Shown here piece after piece: positions 4,521 to 14,437 of a DNA stretch of 34,217 nt. Source of the DNA: an uncultured Bacilli bacterium (lineage in GTDB: Bacteria > Bacillota_I > Bacilli_A > RF39 > UBA660); contig CASRZA010000008.1 in the NCBI GenBank assembly GCA_949439935.1, positions 1-34,217 on the forward strand, in the 5' to 3' direction. Both the position numbers and the translations under genes were made by a program. How positions within the stretch are numbered: the first letter of the stretch is position 1; each line of letters starts with the position of its first letter. The notes under the pieces are model-generated. The model was not told the DNA's origin and searched no databases. It saw only the letters and a program-made list of their open reading frames with translations.

Positions 4521-5140
4521 TGAAGATAGCAGTTTCTATCCTCGTTTCAAATTATTCCGAAGAAGAGACGATTTTAAAGATTAATGAAACAGATGCCGAT
4601 TATTTACACGTCGATGTTACAGACGGCCATTTTGTTCCTGATAAGACACCTGAGAGGGAGTATTTGCATTTATCTCATAAACCGTTAAACGTTCATTTGA
4701 TGGTTTCGAGACCTTTCAGTTATATATCTAAGTATGCTGCTATGAAGGCGGAAACGATAAGTATTTCGTCTGAGATAGAAGACGATAAGTTAGCAATTTT
4801 GGAATATATTAAGTCGCTTGGTGTAAGATGCGGAATGGCTATCAAACCTGGCACTACTGTAAGTATGTTAGAAGATTATTTTGACATTTTAGATGAGATC
4901 ATCGTATTGACTGTCGAGCCTGGTAAGGGCGGTCAGAAGATGAAAGAAGAAGTCTTAGAGAAGGTAGACGAACTCGTAAGATTGCGAGATGAATTTGGTT
5001 ACAAGTATACGATCATGGTCGACGGAGGAATCAACGATAAAAATATTGTGAAGGCTAGTAAAGCCGATATAGTCGTCGTGGGTTCATACATATGCAAAAG
5101 TGAAGATTTCCAGTCCCAAATCGACAGATTAAGACTTTAA
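4520..5140 (+). CDS. rpe: Ribulose-phosphate 3-epimerase-like TIM-barrel protein, divergent
   Basis: Predicted to interconvert ribulose-5-phosphate and xylulose-5-phosphate. The rpe-type position after rsgA supports the call. Retained features: VSIL at the start, HVDVTDGHFVPD with the metal-binding His and Asp, VHLM with the second His, the PGKGGQK loop and VDGGI with the catalytic Asp near the C-terminus, then VVGSYI. Divergences: the block usually reading TVHxEA is TISISSEI, so its histidine is absent; the phosphate loop reads PGKGG rather than PGFGG; and the protein is short (206 residues, usual about 215-225). The metal and acid/base residues remain, so activity is likely but not certain. 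The start overlaps the rsgA stop by one base. Confidence 0.8.
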   Translation: MKIAVSILVSNYSEEETILKINETDADYLHVDVTDGHFVPDKTPEREYLHLSHKPLNVHLMVSRPFSYISKYAAMKAETISISSEIEDDKLAILEYIKSLGVRCGMAIKPGTTVSMLEDYFDILDEIIVLTVEPGKGGQKMKEEVLEKVDELVRLRDEFGYKYTIMVDGGINDKNIVKASKADIVVVGSYICKSEDFQSQIDRLRL

Positions 5141-5144
5141 AAAG

Positions 5145-5153
5145 TGTTATAAT
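5145..5153 (+). promoter_or_regulatory. Extended -10 promoter upstream of the HdeD-like gene and suf operon
   Basis: TGTTATAAT lies just after the rpe stop. No good -35 is seen at 17 bases (CAGATT), so the TG extension may compensate. It probably drives the gene at 5189 and perhaps the suf genes 11 bases further on. Confidence 0.5.
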
Positions 5154-5188
5154 GATGTTAAAATAATAGATAGAAAGAAGTGTTTAAT

Positions 5189-5710
5189 ATGCAAAAAATT
5201 GTCATAAAAAGGTATGAGTCGAAAAAAACTCTCGTTACTCCAGTTATTTTCTTTATCATCGGCATGATACTTTTCTTAAATCCTAGTGGAATCGTCAACT
5301 TTATCTCTTACATATTCGGTGGAGTTTTCTTAGCTTTGGGAATAGGGAAATATATCGCAGATAATAAGAGAAATGATAAGACGACAGGAGATACTTTTTA
5401 CAGTGTCGTGATGGTCGTATTAGGTGTGATATTTATATTTTTCTCTAGCGCGATTGAATTTTTGATAAGACTAGCGATCGGAATTTGGATCATCATAAAT
5501 GCGATCAATACTATTGCAATAGGATCTAACTTGGCTAGAGTAGAAAAGAAAGCAGTAGTCACCTTGATAATCGGATTTATTTTGCTCTTGATGGGATTAT
5601 ATACTATATTAGTCGAAAACTTAGTACTATCGACGTTGGGGTTAGTGATTTTGATCTATTCTATCCTAGAGATAGTCGACTATTTCTATATTCAAGCAAA
5701 AAATAGATAA
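5189..5710 (+). CDS. HdeD/DUF308-like six-helix membrane protein
   Basis: A 173-residue very hydrophobic protein with about six predicted transmembrane helices: VIFFIIGMILFL, FISYIFGGVFLALGI, VVMVVLGVIFIFF, LAIGIWIIINAINTI, VTLIIGFILLLMGLY and LGLVILIYSILEI. The evenly spaced Gly-rich helices and the charged loops after helices 2 and 4 resemble the HdeD/DUF308 family, whose molecular role in Bacillota is unknown. A GTG at 5180 is in frame. ATG 5189 is preferred because GAAAGAAG lies about 9 bases upstream. It precedes sufC by only 11 bases, so it may be cotranscribed with suf, but I see no functional link. Confidence 0.6.
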   Translation: MQKIVIKRYESKKTLVTPVIFFIIGMILFLNPSGIVNFISYIFGGVFLALGIGKYIADNKRNDKTTGDTFYSVVMVVLGVIFIFFSSAIEFLIRLAIGIWIIINAINTIAIGSNLARVEKKAVVTLIIGFILLLMGLYTILVENLVLSTLGLVILIYSILEIVDYFYIQAKNR

Positions 5711-5721
5711 GGAAGAGCACT

Positions 5722-6459
5722 ATGTTAAAAATTAAAGATTTAAAGATCGAAGCTTCTGGTAAAGCGATCGTCGAAAGTTTAAATTTGAAAATCCCAGCAG
5801 GGGAAATCCACGTCATCATGGGACCGAATGGAATAGGAAAGAGCACGATCTGCAGAACCATCATGGGAGATCCAAATTTTAAGGTGTCTGCAGGGACTCT
5901 CGAATATAACAACGAAGAAATTACGAAATTACCCCCTAACGAGCGTGCGAAGAGGGGTATCTTCTTGTTGGAACAAAATCCGACGGCAATCCCAGGCGTT
6001 ACAAATGCTGAGATGTTGAGAGTTGCCGAAGCGGATAGGGGCATTAAAGAATCTATTTTCGAGTTTAATAAAAGATTGTCAAAAGCATGTGAAGACTTGC
6101 ATATCGATTCGGGCTATATACATCACAATATAAATGAATCGATGAGTGGTGGAGAGAAAAAGAAAAATGAACTTTTGCAGATCGAGATTTTAAGACCGTC
6201 GTTGATCCTTTTGGACGAATTGGATAGTGGTCTGGACGTAGATTCACTCAAGAGTCTCGCTACGAGGTTAGACGAATATAGGAAAGAAACTAAATCTTCT
6301 ATTTTGATCATCACGCATCACAAGAATATTTTAGATTATCTACCACCAGATAAAGTATATATTTTAAACGATGGGAAGATGTCTATGGAAGGTGGTATGG
6401 AATTGGCCGAAGCGGTCGAAAAAAATGGCTTTAAGGGGGCGTTTAGTGTAGGTGAATGA
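5722..6459 (+). CDS. sufC: Fe-S cluster assembly ATPase SufC
   Basis: ABC-type ATPase that works with the SufB/SufD scaffold in [Fe-S] cluster assembly in the cytosol. Motifs: Walker A GPNGIGKST (34-42), Q-loop in LLEQNP, signature MSGGEKKKNE (141-150), the SufC-specific run of lysines, Walker B LILLDELDSGLD (161 onward) and the H-loop ITHH. The length of 245 is typical. The ribosome binding site AAGGAAGAG precedes the ATG. It is the first of four closely packed suf genes. Confidence 0.95.
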   Translation: MLKIKDLKIEASGKAIVESLNLKIPAGEIHVIMGPNGIGKSTICRTIMGDPNFKVSAGTLEYNNEEITKLPPNERAKRGIFLLEQNPTAIPGVTNAEMLRVAEADRGIKESIFEFNKRLSKACEDLHIDSGYIHHNINESMSGGEKKKNELLQIEILRPSLILLDELDSGLDVDSLKSLATRLDEYRKETKSSILIITHHKNILDYLPPDKVYILNDGKMSMEGGMELAEAVEKNGFKGAFSVGE

Positions 6460-8327: not shown

Positions 8328-8762
8328 ATGGATGAAAATTTAAAAAGAGAAGTCATTTTAGATAATTACACTAACCCTAGCAATAGGATGAGAGTAGAAG
8401 ATGAAAAATATATTTATGTCAATTCCAACAATTCTTCTTGTATAGATAATATCGACCTTTGGGTTTTGATAGAAGATGGATTCATAAAAGATTTAAAGTT
8501 CGACGGCGAAGCTTGTGCTATAAGCACTTCTAGCACTTCGATCATGACTAAGGAACTCGTCGGGAAGAGTACTAAAGAAGCCCGAGAATTTATCGAAAAC
8601 TTCTATAATATGATCGAGGAGAGAGAATACGATAAGGAAACGTTAAATGAAGCTCTGGTTTACGACACGATTTATAAGCAAGCTAATAGGAAGACGTGTG
8701 CAACACTACCTTATAAAGGCGTTTTAGATGCTATAGAGAAATATGAACATGGAACACACTGA
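8328..8762 (+). CDS. sufU: SufU zinc-dependent sulfurtransferase
   Basis: SufU accepts sulfur from SufS. The three zinc/sulfur cysteines and the Asp are present: Cys38 and Asp40 in SSCIDNI, Cys63 in EACAIS and Cys124 in KTCATLPYKGV. The block between the second and third cysteines includes the insertion that separates SufU from IscU. The length is 144. The ATG is adjacent to the sufS stop, so translation is probably coupled. The operon ends here with a weak hairpin, and no sufB gene follows. Confidence 0.92.
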   Translation: MDENLKREVILDNYTNPSNRMRVEDEKYIYVNSNNSSCIDNIDLWVLIEDGFIKDLKFDGEACAISTSSTSIMTKELVGKSTKEAREFIENFYNMIEEREYDKETLNEALVYDTIYKQANRKTCATLPYKGVLDAIEKYEHGTH

Positions 8763-8779
8763 AAAAAGGTGTGTTTTCA
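8750..8779 (+). terminator. Weak terminator-like hairpin at the end of the suf operon
   Basis: AACACAC pairs with GTGTGTT around a purine-rich loop and is followed by a few T residues. It overlaps the sufU stop codon. The T-tract is short, so read-through is possible. Confidence 0.4.
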
Positions 8780-8870
8780 TATCGATAAAAATCGTGTTTG
8801 ACATATGTATCTACAAAATGGAAAAGCTAAAAGTTTTCTAAAACTTACTAATGATTTTGCGCAAAATGTT

Positions 8871-8879
8871 TGTTATAAT
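8871..8879 (+). promoter_or_regulatory. Extended -10 promoter upstream of the short ORF and the 325-residue gene
   Basis: TGTTATAAT with a poor -35 (ATGATT). The predicted start is near 8886. It separates the genes at 8929 and 9080 from the suf operon. Confidence 0.5.
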
Positions 8880-8928
8880 GATAATATATTTTATTAGGAT
8901 GTGCGTACATGAAAATAAGTACTAGAAA

Positions 8929-9063
8929 ATGTTTGTACAAGGCTTCGACGAATGGAGATATAGAAGTTTAATGGACGTATTTGAAAAATGCCAGAGAAGC
9001 CTTGAGATCAAAACGAAAGATTATGCTAACCTTTTAGAAAAAGTATATGACGCATTAAAATAG
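8929..9063 (+). CDS. Small hypothetical protein (44 codons)
   Basis: An open frame of 44 residues with mixed, protein-like composition. It starts MFVQGFDEWRYRSL and continues with an amphipathic, probably helical second half ending in LLEKVYDALK. It ends 16 bases before the ATG of the 325-residue gene and lies behind the same extended -10 promoter. The ATG at 8929 has no strong ribosome binding site. An internal ATG at 8971, and a separate 20-codon ORF from 8909 with AGGATG upstream that overlaps it in another frame, are competing possibilities. It could be a short leader peptide or a decayed gene. I do not recognise it. Confidence 0.35.
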   Translation: MFVQGFDEWRYRSLMDVFEKCQRSLEIKTKDYANLLEKVYDALK

Positions 9064-9079
9064 AAGCTAGGAGGAATTT

Positions 9080-10057
9080 ATGGAAAAGTTTGCTTTTAAA
9101 AGTTTTATGGAAAACGAGGTGGTTCAAAAGACTATCATTTTTGCTGATTCACTCAATCTTAACATAACGGGATGGAAGCCTTCACACTCCAAAGAACATC
9201 CTTATAGAATATTTTTCTTTAGTATGGGCGTATTTGTAGGATATATAGAAGGCAAAACACGGCGGAATAGGAATACTAATTTTAAGACTGATATGCCATT
9301 CAGATTTTGGACTCCGTTTGGGAAAGTAAATGGAAAGTTCTCGACGCGTTTTGAATGCTTTAAATATAGTTTTGAAAATGAGCAGCTAGATAAAATTAGA
9401 GGATTGTTTTGGGTTAAGAATAGTGGATCACAATATAGCCAAGGGTATACTATCGGTTCGAGTGTCCACATAGGACTAGATAATTACGAGGAAATAAGCG
9501 TAAGATTTAATTGTATTAATAGCAATTATGATATCGAGTTAATTAGGTGGAATCGTAGGTCTTATGAAAGCGTGAATCTTTGTTCGAGGTTCGACAGTTA
9601 TTTGAGTATAGGCCATTGTGCTTATCCAATTCTTAATGAAAAGAGAATGCTCGCTAAAATTAATGTGGAATTAGCTGACGATGATGTTACAGTTCCAGTA
9701 AACTTTACATTTTTGAACGGCAAAAGTTATCAGAAGATGACTGATGTCGATGTTTGTAAATTTAAGACAGCTCTTTGTCGAAGAAGAGCAGAACTATTCG
9801 ATTATGACATGTTTGCAGTAGAAATAAATGAGAACGATCCTCGAATGAATGAATTTATCGATGAAATTCGCGAGAAATTAACTCTACTGGCGAACGGAAC
9901 GACTCCAGTTTGTTTATACGATAAGATGGCTAACATTTGTTTCCCAAAGGCTAGAGACGGTTTCAAACTCGCATTATCTAGAGCTCATGACGTGGGAGTC
10001 GCATTTGAACATAGTATGATTTTAAAAAAAATGGAAATCCACGATAGAGTAAATTAA
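9080..10057 (+). CDS. Hypothetical protein, 325 residues, no family recognised
   Basis: A full open frame with an excellent ribosome binding site (AGGAGG, 6 bases before the ATG). I recognise no domain. There is no signal peptide and no transmembrane helix, so it is probably cytosolic. The first 200 residues are rich in aromatic residues and beta-prone segments (for example IFFFSMGVFVGYIEG and MPFRFWTPFGKVNGKF). The C-terminal third is more charged and helical, with DPRMNEFIDEIREKL. Several scattered cysteines are not in CxxC pairs. Base composition and codon use look like its neighbours. It sits between suf and an unusual ABC/FtsX permease in a stretch of three unrecognised genes. Confidence 0.75.
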   Translation: MEKFAFKSFMENEVVQKTIIFADSLNLNITGWKPSHSKEHPYRIFFFSMGVFVGYIEGKTRRNRNTNFKTDMPFRFWTPFGKVNGKFSTRFECFKYSFENEQLDKIRGLFWVKNSGSQYSQGYTIGSSVHIGLDNYEEISVRFNCINSNYDIELIRWNRRSYESVNLCSRFDSYLSIGHCAYPILNEKRMLAKINVELADDDVTVPVNFTFLNGKSYQKMTDVDVCKFKTALCRRRAELFDYDMFAVEINENDPRMNEFIDEIREKLTLLANGTTPVCLYDKMANICFPKARDGFKLALSRAHDVGVAFEHSMILKKMEIHDRVN

Positions 10058-10202
10058 TTATTATATGAATACACCTGTGTTCGATAGATGGTTTTTTGTT
10101 CTGTAAAACCTGTCAGTACGCTTGCAATTAAAATCGTTTGGTTATATTCTTTTAATATAAGGTGAAGGAACTTTACAAAATCCATACTTTCTCGATATAC
10201 AA

Positions 10203-10225
10203 TAGGTCGGTAAAGGCCTGTTTTT
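10203..10225 (+). terminator. Probable terminator between 9080 gene and the permease gene
   Basis: AGGTC pairs with GGCCT (one G-T pair) across GGTAAA and is followed by GTTTTTGTTTT. The stem is short but placed just upstream of the next promoter. Confidence 0.5.
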
Positions 10226-10238
10226 GTTTTGATTTTTA

Positions 10239-10267
10239 TTGTAACTCAAGGGCATTTACGTTATAAT
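10239..10267 (+). promoter_or_regulatory. Sigma-A-type promoter of the ABC/FtsX gene
   Basis: TTGTAA (10239-10244), 17-base spacer, TATAAT (10262-10267). It has the same -35 hexamer and spacing as the rlmN promoter. The gene starts at 10305 behind AGGAAG. Confidence 0.7.
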
Positions 10268-10304
10268 CTAATTATCAGTAATGATCATATAGGAAGTAGA
10301 TAAT

Positions 10305-12572
10305 ATGATAAAAATAATAAAAATATCGAAAGAAGTAGATAAGAAGAAGATTTTAGATAATATAAGTTTAGAATTACCCGATACAGGTTTTGTAGCCCTA
10401 AGTGGAGAAGAACTGTCTTGGAGTGGTTTTATTTTAGGAATACTCGGGGGTATGGAAGCTCCTACAAATGGTTCTGTTATAATAGATAATACCGTTTTGA
10501 CGCATAAAAATGAGAAAGAGTTGGCAGAATTTAGAGATAAAAACTTAGCTTTGCTTGCCGGGGAGAACGACTTGGTCAGTTGGATGAGCGTTCGTGAAAA
10601 TTTGGAATTTGTAAATGATGCGAGTGAATTTGACAGCGTCGTTAAGTCCTTTAACATCGAGAATATCATGGATAAACAAGTTAGCGAAATTACTCTTGAA
10701 GAAAAATATAGAGTCGCTTTGGCAAGGATCATCTTAAAGAATCCGAGAATAATTTTAGTAGATGAAATACCTAACAATTTAAGTAGAGGCGCAAAGACAG
10801 CTACGTTGAAACTCTTGAAGTCGCTTAGTCGACAAAGGCTCGTCGTCCTCGTCTCAAGAGATGACTATGAAGTAGATGAATATATCGATGTTTTGGTAGA
10901 GTTTGAAAGCAATAAAATAGTCAAAGTGAACCGTTTTAAAGACAGTTTTGCTAAAAATGAGATTGTCGTTAATAGAAGTAAATTTCCTATATTTAAGTTT
11001 GTTAGGAGATATTTTGAACTGTTTAAGTATCGAATCTTGCTTTCTATCTTTTTTGGAATATTGTCAATCTTTTCTTTTCTTTTGGGAAGCGCTTTAAAAA
11101 GCATCGACCTTGCAAGCGAGCATGCCGGCCATCTTCTATCGAACGACAGTATTCCTGTGCTGTTGGAAACTGGTAATGACATTTTGGGAGAAAATGTCTT
11201 AAAAATGATCGAAGAAACTAAATTTATAGATAGTCCTTTAAAAATAGGGAAGACTGTGGGTGGTATCAACAACGCCTATGCTAAGTTTTCGTTTGGTACT
11301 TATGATGAAAAGAAGAATGGATTATATTATAAAGATCCAGTAGAAATGTACTCTTATTTCGATGTCGAGGCGTTAGATAATATCGATTTTGGAGCGTCCC
11401 CATCTGATAACAGTGAAATCGTTATAAACTCTTATTTAGCCGATCTGATGATAGAACTGGGAGTCGAAGACAGTGAAGGAGAATTATATAGACCAAAAGA
11501 TTATGAAGAACTAGTGAACTCAAAAAGATATATCAAGTTAGGAGATAAAAACGTAGCCATTTCGGGTATTAAAGTAGTAGATCTCAAACATTTTAGTTCA
11601 TTAAAAGAAACTAGGAATACTTTTAAAAATATCGAAGTATTCGAAGAAACAGTAAAAAATGTAGGTGCAAATATATATGTCATAAAGGGTTTTTTTGAAC
11701 TTTTCTCTGTCGTAGATGAATGTAATCCTATCTACAATTTTAAGTATGCGGAGGCCGATGATACTATCCCCGTTGAACGAAGAGTAGTATTTAAAAACTC
11801 TATTGTTTTGGAAGATGAGACTCTCGTAAGAGAATTAAATAAAGGTGAAATAATCATAGGAAAAGATGATGTCAAACATCTAGGCATATATGCCGATACG
11901 GCGATAGGTAATAAAATCTCACTTTTTGTAGAAGATTCTTCTATGGAAGAAACTTATGTTTTAGACTTTATCGTCAAAGGTATCTCGAGAGATGGAAATA
12001 TGTACTTTAATAGGGAAGACCTGAGCGATTATTTTTGGGATGGCGTAGGAGTAAATAAGGTTGAAGTTCACGAAAGAGATGAGAATAATTTAAGGGTCAT
12101 GCTTGAAAGAGGTTTGTTCGACGAAAATATCTTTATCAAAACGCCATACTCGGGAATTTTTAATAGATTAGGTGAGCAATTAAGGTCTCCTGAAACTCTT
12201 TTGAAATTATCTTGCATCTCAGGTATATTTTTAACTATAAGCTGTTTCGGTTGGCTCGTACATGGTGTCCTAAAAGAGTTTAATCGCGACTTAAGACTTT
12301 TGAGTTGGATCGGAATACCTGACTGGAAGCTTACATCTTCTATAAGTGTTTTAGTGGCAGTCGAAAGTGTAATCGTAACGAGTCTCGGTTTAGTATTTTC
12401 TTATATATCTAAAGTTTTGATAAATCACATGGTCGGTTCATTAGTTTTTAATTCGGTCGACATGGTAGCTTTCAATACGTTCGAGATATTATCCTGTTTA
12501 GCTTTTCTAATCGTCGTGAACGTATGTATATATTTTATTGTAGTTCATAGTAGGAATCGAGCTCGCGGTTGA
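10305..12572 (+). CDS. FtsX/MacB-type permease fused to a degenerate ABC ATPase domain
   Basis: A 755-residue fusion. Residues 1 to about 215 align by eye with an ABC ATPase (GFVALSGEEL, then ILGGMEAPTNGSVII, IILVDEIP). The catalytic motifs are broken: the Walker A position reads SGEELSWSGF with Trp where Lys should be; the Q-loop glutamine is not seen; the LSGGQ signature is ITLEEKYRVALAR; and the H-loop reads VSRDD, with Arg for His. Only Walker B (LVDE) survives. A transmembrane helix near 246-264 is followed by a large extracytoplasmic domain (about 265-645) and three C-terminal helices (GIFLTISCFGWLV, VLVAVESVIVTSLGLVF, LAFLIVVNVCIYFIVV), the MacB/FtsX layout. It is unlikely to hydrolyse ATP by itself. 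It may be a non-transporting sensor or mechanotransmitter, or may pair with a separate ATPase. No such partner lies next to it. Confidence 0.8.
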   Translation: MIKIIKISKEVDKKKILDNISLELPDTGFVALSGEELSWSGFILGILGGMEAPTNGSVIIDNTVLTHKNEKELAEFRDKNLALLAGENDLVSWMSVRENLEFVNDASEFDSVVKSFNIENIMDKQVSEITLEEKYRVALARIILKNPRIILVDEIPNNLSRGAKTATLKLLKSLSRQRLVVLVSRDDYEVDEYIDVLVEFESNKIVKVNRFKDSFAKNEIVVNRSKFPIFKFVRRYFELFKYRILLSIFFGILSIFSFLLGSALKSIDLASEHAGHLLSNDSIPVLLETGNDILGENVLKMIEETKFIDSPLKIGKTVGGINNAYAKFSFGTYDEKKNGLYYKDPVEMYSYFDVEALDNIDFGASPSDNSEIVINSYLADLMIELGVEDSEGELYRPKDYEELVNSKRYIKLGDKNVAISGIKVVDLKHFSSLKETRNTFKNIEVFEETVKNVGANIYVIKGFFELFSVVDECNPIYNFKYAEADDTIPVERRVVFKNSIVLEDETLVRELNKGEIIIGKDDVKHLGIYADTAIGNKISLFVEDSSMEETYVLDFIVKGISRDGNMYFNREDLSDYFWDGVGVNKVEVHERDENNLRVMLERGLFDENIFIKTPYSGIFNRLGEQLRSPETLLKLSCISGIFLTISCFGWLVHGVLKEFNRDLRLLSWIGIPDWKLTSSISVLVAVESVIVTSLGLVFSYISKVLINHMVGSLVFNSVDMVAFNTFEILSCLAFLIVVNVCIYFIVVHSRNRARG

Positions 12573-12581
12573 CTCTTCTTC

Positions 12582-12610
12582 TTTACTTTTATGGAACTTG
12601 ATGATAAAAT
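12582..12610 (+). promoter_or_regulatory. Promoter of the 568-residue gene
   Basis: TTTACT (12582-12587), 17 bases, TAAAAT (12605-12610) with the TG extension at 12602-12603. Its predicted start (near 12617) lies after the upstream ATG at 12591, which supports ATG 12639 as the real start. Confidence 0.6.
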
Positions 12611-12638
12611 ATTCAAGTCTTTTGAAAGGGGAAACGAT

Positions 12639-14345
12639 ATGAGGCCAACAGAAAAGTTTAAACGTGGATTAAAAGATTTACGTAGGCAATTGACCGAAAA
12701 GTTGCAATACTATAAAGAACAGGAAAATGAGTTTTGTGAAAAGCTAGGAAGACAATCTATGGAGGTCGCTATAACCTATCAAGAATTCACCGATAAGATG
12801 AATCAAGAAGAGTACGAGTCATTTTTAGATGCCAAAGCAGAAGATATATGCCTACAAAATAGGGATGAATCCCGGGCACTTAAAAGAAAGATGCTGTACA
12901 TATCTCGAATTATATCTGACTTGAACGATGTAATAAATAATTTTTCTCTCGATAGAGCAGACCGGTTTATTCCATTACAGATTTTAATGGAATTGTTATA
13001 TTATGCGTGTAGTGCAAACATTATTTCATTAGAAGAGGCGGGACGCATATTAGGTATGGTTATACGCGCCGGTAGTAGAAATCTAGGCAAAGATTCTAAC
13101 CGATATAGCGAAGTTGCAATCATAGTCTTAGAGGACTATTTTAATGAAGATGGAACCTTCAAGTATAATGACAGGATCGATAGATTTAAGGTTGCGATAG
13201 AGTATCTAGAAAGATGTCCAGACACACTTAGAATGTTATTAAGTAAATTTTTACATATTAATTATGATAGGGTCGATTTGAGTACTGGCTTGACAGAACT
13301 TTTGGCAGCGAACAATGCGTTGTTGAGAGAAAAGGTGGGAGAAACTAGTACTTTGCTTATAAAACAATATATGAACGATTTCGAGGAGAAAAGTAGTCAA
13401 ATATTTGGCAATACTGGCGAGCAGGATAGTCTTTGGCAAGTGGTATCGATGTGTTTCGATCATGAAAAGGCTATAAAGCCGATCGACTTGAGTTGTTACC
13501 TCTATACTGTCGTGGCCTGTACGATGACCAGTGAAGTTGATCCAAAAGCAGCTGTCGAATGTTTGGGAATGCTCGTACACATCGACCAAAGTGCTAATTC
13601 TAGAATTTATGATGAGAGGTATCCTAAAGAAGTTAAACGTCTTGTAGAGTATTTTAATGAAGATGGAACTTTTAAGGAAAATTCTCGTGTCTTGGACTTT
13701 AGAACTATGATCGGCGATCTCATGCGTATAAATTTTAGAAAACCGCCAGCGCTTCAGCTTCCAAAATCCGCGGAAGATTTACTCGAACGCATGGTCGGCC
13801 TCTTGGAAAAAAGTAATGACGAATATAGACGCAGTCACGTCCAAAGGAAGAAGGAAGCGCTAGCGCAGAAGGCCCGGGAGAGACTAATCGAGTATTATGA
13901 TTATATCGATGGTAGAGTCGTCGCTGTTCCTTTTGACTTGGACGATTTCTTGGATATTCTCGGTAAATGTGATTTTTCGGAGGATGAAAACGAGACTATA
14001 ATGAGACACATGAATAATAGGATCAAAATTAGGGGTTATAAAATAGGATACATTTTAGATGAAGAAGAATTACAATTATATTTAGATGCAACAGATCTAT
14101 TAACTGAGCTTTCTAAAGACAGTTCTGATCGACTCGAAATTGAAGATGCGATAAGCAATCTAAGTTCACTCGTGTCGTTATATTCTAGTGAATTAGATAC
14201 AAGTGAAAAAGCGTACCTAGAAGAAGAAAAACACGAGATATTGGATTGTCTCGAGAGAATCGTAAAGAAATATGCACTTTCTGGTGAATCTTCTGTCGGT
14301 AGAGGTGATACTCATAAATCGTTAGTGATTGAGCCTTTAAAATAG
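12639..14345 (+). CDS. Hypothetical protein, 568 residues, internally duplicated
   Basis: I recognise no named family. The N-terminus (about 1-75) is charged and coiled-coil-like. Two related blocks follow. Each has a hydrophobic helical segment, a spaced stretch and then the motif YFNEDGTFK followed by N-x-R. The motif starts at bases 13137 and 13650, 171 codons apart, and 20 bases are identical between the copies. The C-terminal part (about 400-568) is acidic and helical. No membrane segment or signal peptide is seen. The open frame extends back to 12591, but AAAGGGG lies 7 bases before ATG 12639 and the predicted promoter overlaps the longer start. It sits between the odd ABC/FtsX gene and era, and may be lineage-specific. 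Confidence 0.75.
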   Translation: MRPTEKFKRGLKDLRRQLTEKLQYYKEQENEFCEKLGRQSMEVAITYQEFTDKMNQEEYESFLDAKAEDICLQNRDESRALKRKMLYISRIISDLNDVINNFSLDRADRFIPLQILMELLYYACSANIISLEEAGRILGMVIRAGSRNLGKDSNRYSEVAIIVLEDYFNEDGTFKYNDRIDRFKVAIEYLERCPDTLRMLLSKFLHINYDRVDLSTGLTELLAANNALLREKVGETSTLLIKQYMNDFEEKSSQIFGNTGEQDSLWQVVSMCFDHEKAIKPIDLSCYLYTVVACTMTSEVDPKAAVECLGMLVHIDQSANSRIYDERYPKEVKRLVEYFNEDGTFKENSRVLDFRTMIGDLMRINFRKPPALQLPKSAEDLLERMVGLLEKSNDEYRRSHVQRKKEALAQKARERLIEYYDYIDGRVVAVPFDLDDFLDILGKCDFSEDENETIMRHMNNRIKIRGYKIGYILDEEELQLYLDATDLLTELSKDSSDRLEIEDAISNLSSLVSLYSSELDTSEKAYLEEEKHEILDCLERIVKKYALSGESSVGRGDTHKSLVIEPLK

Positions 14346-14356
14346 TATTGTAGAGT

Positions 14357-14382
14357 AAAAGAGTATGTGTAATGCTCTTTTT
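14357..14382 (+). terminator. Rho-independent terminator before era
   Basis: AAAAGAGTAT pairs with ATGCTCTTTT over 10 positions (one G-T pair) with a five-base loop, and continues into T residues. It closes the transcript of the 568-residue gene. Confidence 0.75.
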
Positions 14383-14386
14383 ATAT

Positions 14387-14415
14387 TTGCAAGGAATGGG
14401 CTTTTATGATAGAAT
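14387..14415 (+). promoter_or_regulatory. Promoter of era-yqzL-recO
   Basis: TTGCAA (14387-14392), 17-base spacer and TAGAAT (14410-14415) with the upstream TG, giving TGATAGAAT. The transcript would begin near 14422, ahead of the AAGGTG ribosome binding site of era. Confidence 0.65.
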
Positions 14416-14437
14416 TATGAAGATGGAAGGTGATGAG

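Follow-up and report, generated by a model that had tools for sequence, protein, structure and literature searches.

Degenerate ATP sites are a familiar feature of paired ABC proteins, in which one good site remains. Each site in such a protein is composite, and is formed by the Walker A, Walker B, Q-loop, and H-loop motifs of one nucleotide-binding domain (NBD) together with the signature motif of the other (PMC7756269). Heterodimeric ABC exporters commonly have a degenerate site, and the known examples keep one canonical site. The most extreme of these is Pdr5, in which all motifs of one site are changed and cysteine takes the place of the Walker A lysine (PMC7756269). MacB, a type VII ABC transporter, carries in order an NBD, a first transmembrane (TM) helix, a large outer domain, and TM helices 2 to 4. 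Passages in two reports on FtsEX, which shares the type VII architecture, state that this system works through ATP hydrolysis by FtsE (PMC11627006, PMC11491553). For the transporters encoded in lactococcin-972 operons, functions have been presumed and not tested (PMC11796350). In the open-access literature we found no described case of a pseudo-ABC or degenerate MacB protein.

Here we describe a MacB-like (type VII) fused ABC protein of 755 amino acids whose NBD has lost nearly all of its catalytic motifs. The gene resides in a window of 34,217 nucleotides, the full stretch of DNA analyzed, which is contig C8 of a draft genome (1.43 Mb, 109 contigs, 91% complete). The nearest named relatives of the source are metagenome genomes labelled uncultured Bacilli bacterium, and some isolate names hint at rabbit samples, which may indicate the host. 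On balance, we favor the view that the protein is a maintained pseudo-ATPase that most likely serves as an ATP-independent, membrane-anchored ectodomain binder.

Architecture and genomic setting

As originally predicted, the gene is a single open frame without a stop or frameshift, and its codon use is normal, like that of its neighbors. The promoter, which had also been called normal, is less secure. A promoter-like site does precede the gene (Table 1), but the surrounding region is AT-rich and contains 33 such sites, a number that does not clearly exceed the 24.5 ± 5.3 expected by chance.

An AlphaFold2 model built from 10 sequences (mean pLDDT of 77) begins with an ABC domain and continues through a single TM helix into a large outer domain, which is followed by three further TM helices; it thus reproduces the MacB layout; the overall pTM is 0.52, and the orientation of the domains relative to each other is not reliable. 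The modelled NBD matches MJ0796 and FtsE-type cassettes with Z scores of about 26 (rmsd of 1.9 to MJ0796), and MacB fills the first seven places among the full-length Foldseek matches. A profile search with the permease matches YtrF, MacB, LolE, and LolF, with a weak match to FtsX. Thus, the ABC fold is retained and a MacB architecture is predicted.

The claim that an FtsX-type permease part is kept is only partly borne out. The four-helix topology is predicted, and in sequence the FtsX permease family (PF02687) scores 10.2 bits (E value of 0.81, cut-off of 25.5), compared with 29 to 44 bits in paralogs from the same genome. TM helices 2 to 4 and both coupling helices typical of type VII proteins are strongly diverged: the major coupling helix is altered and carries extra residues, and the minor one is missing from the C terminus. 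Specifically, an SP..LLK segment that is conserved in relatives, and whose position is that of the minor coupling helix of MacB (PMC5985334), is absent. The protein further differs from MacB in its dead ATPase motifs, in lacking an adaptor or outer-membrane partner, and in coming from a Gram-positive-type lineage.

Table 1. Features of the 755-amino acid fusion protein and its surroundings, in window coordinates.
Feature	Position	Strand	Basis or remark
325-aa protein, cassette member	9080..10057	+	no Pfam, NCBIfam, PHROG, or PADLOC match
Promoter-like site TTGTAA-17-TATAAT	10239..10267	+	not clearly above chance in region
MacB-type (type VII) ABC fusion protein with pseudo-ATPase domain, 755 aa	10305..12572	+	single open frame
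Pseudo-NBD, residues 1-210	10305..10934	+	Pfam ABC_tran 46.6 bits; ABC fold
Degenerate Walker A, residues 34-42, GEELSWSGF (family GENGSGKTT)	10404..10430	+	alignment, HMM
Degenerate Q-loop, Gln to Gly at residue 86 (FQ to AG)	10560..10562	+	alignment
Degenerate signature ITLEE, residues 129-133 (family LSGGE; Ser-Gly-Gly lost)	10689..10703	+	alignment
Walker B IILVDE, residues 149-154, Asp-Glu kept	10749..10766	+	alignment
Degenerate D-loop, Asp to Ser at residue 160	10782..10784	+	alignment
Degenerate H-loop, His to Arg at residue 185	10857..10859	+	alignment
TM helix 1, residues 241-265	11025..11099	+	AlphaFold2 helix, hydropathy
Extracellular domain, residues 269-615	11109..12149	+	predicted model; family-typical rate
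TM helices 2-4, residues 616-753, strongly diverged	12150..12563	+	predicted model, alignment, branch lengths
Major coupling helix remnant, LKEFNRDLRLLSWIGI	12270..12317	+	alignment
Downstream cassette protein, about 570 residues, without known domain	12639..14345	+	open frame from 12591; likely start after AAGGGG

The gene sits within a three-gene insertion between sufU and era. In a sister species (G004), era comes immediately after sufU, 160 bases away, whereas genomes G006 and G008 carry unrelated genes in this interval. The sufU-era interval (window 8762-14435; L145, L146, L147) therefore appears to be an insertion hotspot in the genus, being empty in one genome and differently occupied in the others. 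The same hotspot may be used in another genus, wherein an intact tandem ABC-FtsX pair (L142:5599-10417; G315:C3) is convergent with sufU and lies 22 bases from its 3′ end.

Of 193 family genomes, 3 contain a match to the 325-amino acid cassette protein, counting the genome that encodes it. The downstream cassette gene begins 66 bases past the fusion gene on the same strand, and its product belongs to no known family in Pfam, NCBIfam, PHROG, or PADLOC. A paralog with 41% identity is encoded on contig C36 (L141:5969-7696), away from any ABC gene, making this a two-copy family. Phage and defense origins were considered and rejected, as PHROG matches are to generic ABC transporters only and PADLOC only matches the C-terminal half of the ABC protein to mad3.

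Loss of the catalytic motifs

The NBD aligns through its motifs without gaps to those of nine intact relatives, and the motif assignments from this alignment agree with those from an HMM built without the 755-amino acid protein. Four motifs had been reported lost, and the loss proves both real and wider, in that the A-loop (Tyr to Val), the D-loop, and the minor coupling helix are gone as well. The Q-loop glutamine, the LSGGQ signature, and the H-loop histidine are each replaced as predicted. The Walker A lysine is likewise lost, but the tryptophan thought to substitute for it was misplaced by one residue: serine replaces the lysine and tryptophan replaces the preceding glycine, among four lost positions of this motif. 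The Asp-Glu of Walker B, whose retention had also been anticipated, is the only catalytic motif kept.

A set of 54 non-redundant fusion NBDs has 50 columns with at least 85% conservation, and 26 of these are changed in this protein, whereas the median for relatives is 2. An outlying relative has lost 27 of 49 such columns and keeps the Walker A lysine; it is apparently a different exporter type admitted by our length filter. The changes are enriched at catalytic columns (13 of 16, versus 13 of 34 elsewhere; Fisher p = 0.006). Across 128 related NBD rows in which Walker A is covered, two of which are filled by this gene itself as a full-length and a truncated copy, the lysine is absent only from the 755-amino acid protein. 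Two other origins were rejected. A frameshift is not responsible for the broken Walker A, as the other frames of 10395-10440 contain no GKS or GKT remnant, and an assembly error would not yield 26 scattered changes within an open frame. Judged from sequence, the motif loss makes it very probable that the protein is unable to hydrolyze ATP, as had been proposed.

A separate case of motif loss was observed on contig C21. Two overlapping, degenerate EcfA-like genes (L062:609-1253 and 1244-2029; G000:C21, minus strand) are conserved in the genus as a pair. The first encodes a 214-amino acid ABC-like protein without Walker A, and its partner keeps Walker A and has lost the signature, the catalytic glutamate, and the H-loop histidine. 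Homologs of the protein without Walker A are present in 8 of 9 genus genomes (32 to 45% identity), each beside the partner.

Uneven constraint and the possibility of decay

The domains of the protein have not evolved in concert. Mean identity to ten relatives is 32% for the NBD and 16.5% for TM helices 2 to 4, compared with 48% and 33%, respectively, among the relatives themselves. For the ectodomain, the corresponding values of 26% and 29% place the protein within the family range. On a fixed permease tree, the terminal branch of the protein is 1.32 for the NBD (next longest 0.68) and 2.72 for TM helices 2 to 4 (next longest 1.14), so that these two parts have evolved at about twice the rate of any relative. 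The ectodomain branch of 1.10 ranks only sixth of 16, where a ‘normal’ rate carries a wide error because this domain is near saturation in all members. Thus, the motor and its transmission have drifted and the outer domain has not.

Such long branches, which are the longest of the family in both the NBD and TM helices 2 to 4, would also be expected if the function had been lost and the gene were drifting under relaxed selection before breaking. Of the rival explanations this one survives best, although we consider it unlikely. The missing C-terminal coupling helix and the accessory location, absent from the sister species, are likewise in its favor, as is the fact that only a single sequence is known. 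Orthologs with dead motifs were found neither in the 9 genomes of the genus nor in two overlapping family samples (291 and 386 genomes) or an order sample (385 genomes), all of which yielded intact-motif relatives only. A wider search of genome contigs with the protein alone gave no match, one with a permease alignment recovered seven relatives, all with intact motifs, and viral contigs yielded none. In a nine-row permease alignment, no stretch was well enough conserved to serve as a query. Because we have a single sequence without a dead-motif ortholog, conservation of the degenerate state cannot be demonstrated.

Drift, however, should have left other marks. When an intact paralog was mutated at random until the same number of conserved NBD sites (26 of 50) had changed, 300 runs produced a mean of 30 stops and never fewer than 16, whereas the actual gene has none; the simulation assumes that all 26 changes arose in one neutral period, and it offers an argument rather than proof. 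The absence of a motif remnant in the other frames also speaks against drift. Given no stops where about 30 are expected, normal codon use, and an ectodomain that evolves at a family-typical rate, we agree with the original prediction that this is not a gene in plain decay.

Relatives, partners, and a proposed ATP-independent role

The intact paralogs in the same genome form two tandem pairs, on contigs C32 and C21. Together with similar fusions of the same Bacilli family in G006 and G315, they are homologous to the 755-amino acid protein over its full length (25 to 31% identity) and have the same length and topology. These relatives retain every motif as well as the SP..LLK helix at the C terminus, and are mostly paired, whereas the gene described here stands alone. 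In one tandem pair (L063:9881-14623; G006:C2), the NBDs are nearly identical and the permeases strongly divergent, which suggests gene conversion of the NBD. Genes upstream of this pair (4960-5953 and 8725-9718) are also duplicated.

The tandem arrangement suggests that heterodimers exist in the family, and the protein could then be an inert half that joins an intact paralog from C32 or C21 and modulates that transporter. We regard this also as unlikely, and place it next in order. Degenerate sites are indeed common in heterodimeric exporters, and Pdr5 and ABCG5/G8 resemble the present case in having several catalytic motifs changed, including the Walker A lysine (to cysteine in Pdr5; PMC7756269). 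However, the known cases split their losses so that one composite site remains canonical. Here Walker A, the Q-loop, the H-loop, and the signature are dead together, and the NBD could complete neither site. With Walker A and the signature lost from the same NBD, neither a homodimer nor a pairing with an intact paralog would contain a complete site, which makes a heterodimer less likely. Furthermore, the paralogs are already partnered and the coupling elements of the candidate half have diverged, the minor coupling helix being absent. Intact ATPases are encoded elsewhere in the genome as the tandem pairs, but no partner gene lies beside this one, and the proposal that the protein is a partner of another ATPase is weakened.

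A quite improbable alternative is that the pseudo-NBD now binds or regulates a partner in the cytoplasm, perhaps the downstream cassette protein, through which the ectodomain would signal inward without ATP. The retained NBD fold and Walker B, and a downstream gene on the same strand only 66 bases away, are consistent with this arrangement. Conversely, the C36 paralog of that gene is not next to an ABC gene, and the NBD evolves fast. Regulation of a cell-wall hydrolase in the style of FtsEX, suggested by the shared type VII architecture and by the YtrF, LolE, and weak FtsX profile matches, is very improbable, because such a role needs ATPase activity (on which FtsEX depends according to passages in PMC11627006 and PMC11491553), and here the motifs are dead, the FtsE family score is 66.1 bits against a cut-off of 264.85, and no hydrolase gene was recognized nearby.

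Clues to the role of the family come from its relatives. The best NCBIfam match of the NBD, for this protein and its paralogs alike, is the lactococcin-972 exporter ATPase (TIGR03608), although the protein scores 85.7 bits and falls below the cut-off of 254.85. Relatives in the genus and beyond adjoin short secreted proteins and separate ABC and FtsX genes. These gene neighborhoods suggest a role for the family in bacteriocin export or immunity, and resemble those of TIGR03608 ATPases with their large permeases. The present protein differs from the latter in its low score, in being fused, and in having no bacteriocin gene recognized beside it. No ligand or partner gene adjoins it, and a lactococcin-972 family protein (PF09683) is absent from the draft genome. 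Elsewhere, short proteins with signal peptide-like starts lie next to ABC-FtsX genes (L062:12493-13056, L062:16877-17326, and L063:14682-15158); they match no known family and are candidate bacteriocin-like products.

Returning to the maintained pseudo-ATPase, we infer that the protein does not hydrolyze ATP and that its ectodomain binds something outside the cell. The cytoplasmic ABC domain would fold yet form no catalytic ATP sandwich, and its linkage to the membrane part may have been loosened by divergence of TM helices 2 to 4 and the major coupling helix and by loss of the minor one. The large extracellular domain would remain as constrained as it is in relatives that work. Its ligand might be, as a guess, a peptide, a bacteriocin, or a lipid-linked cell-wall precursor, and the protein could act without ATP as a receptor, a decoy, or a stoichiometric immunity factor. 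The earlier suggestion of a sensor is compatible with this proposal only if the ectodomain is a static binder. More tentatively, with the chances falling a little short of even, a type VII ABC protein has here been parted from its motor, such that the ectodomain is selected as an ATP-independent binder (an orphan immunity factor, decoy, or receptor) and the ABC domain serves only as a folded scaffold.

What would set this protein apart from the known degenerate pairs is that a fused, MacB-type NBD leaves no complete site even with a good partner, while the outer domain is still constrained. If this reading is correct, the outer domain of MacB-type transporters can be useful without energy, which would help to tell binding from pumping in a poorly understood branch of bacteriocin immunity and sensing.
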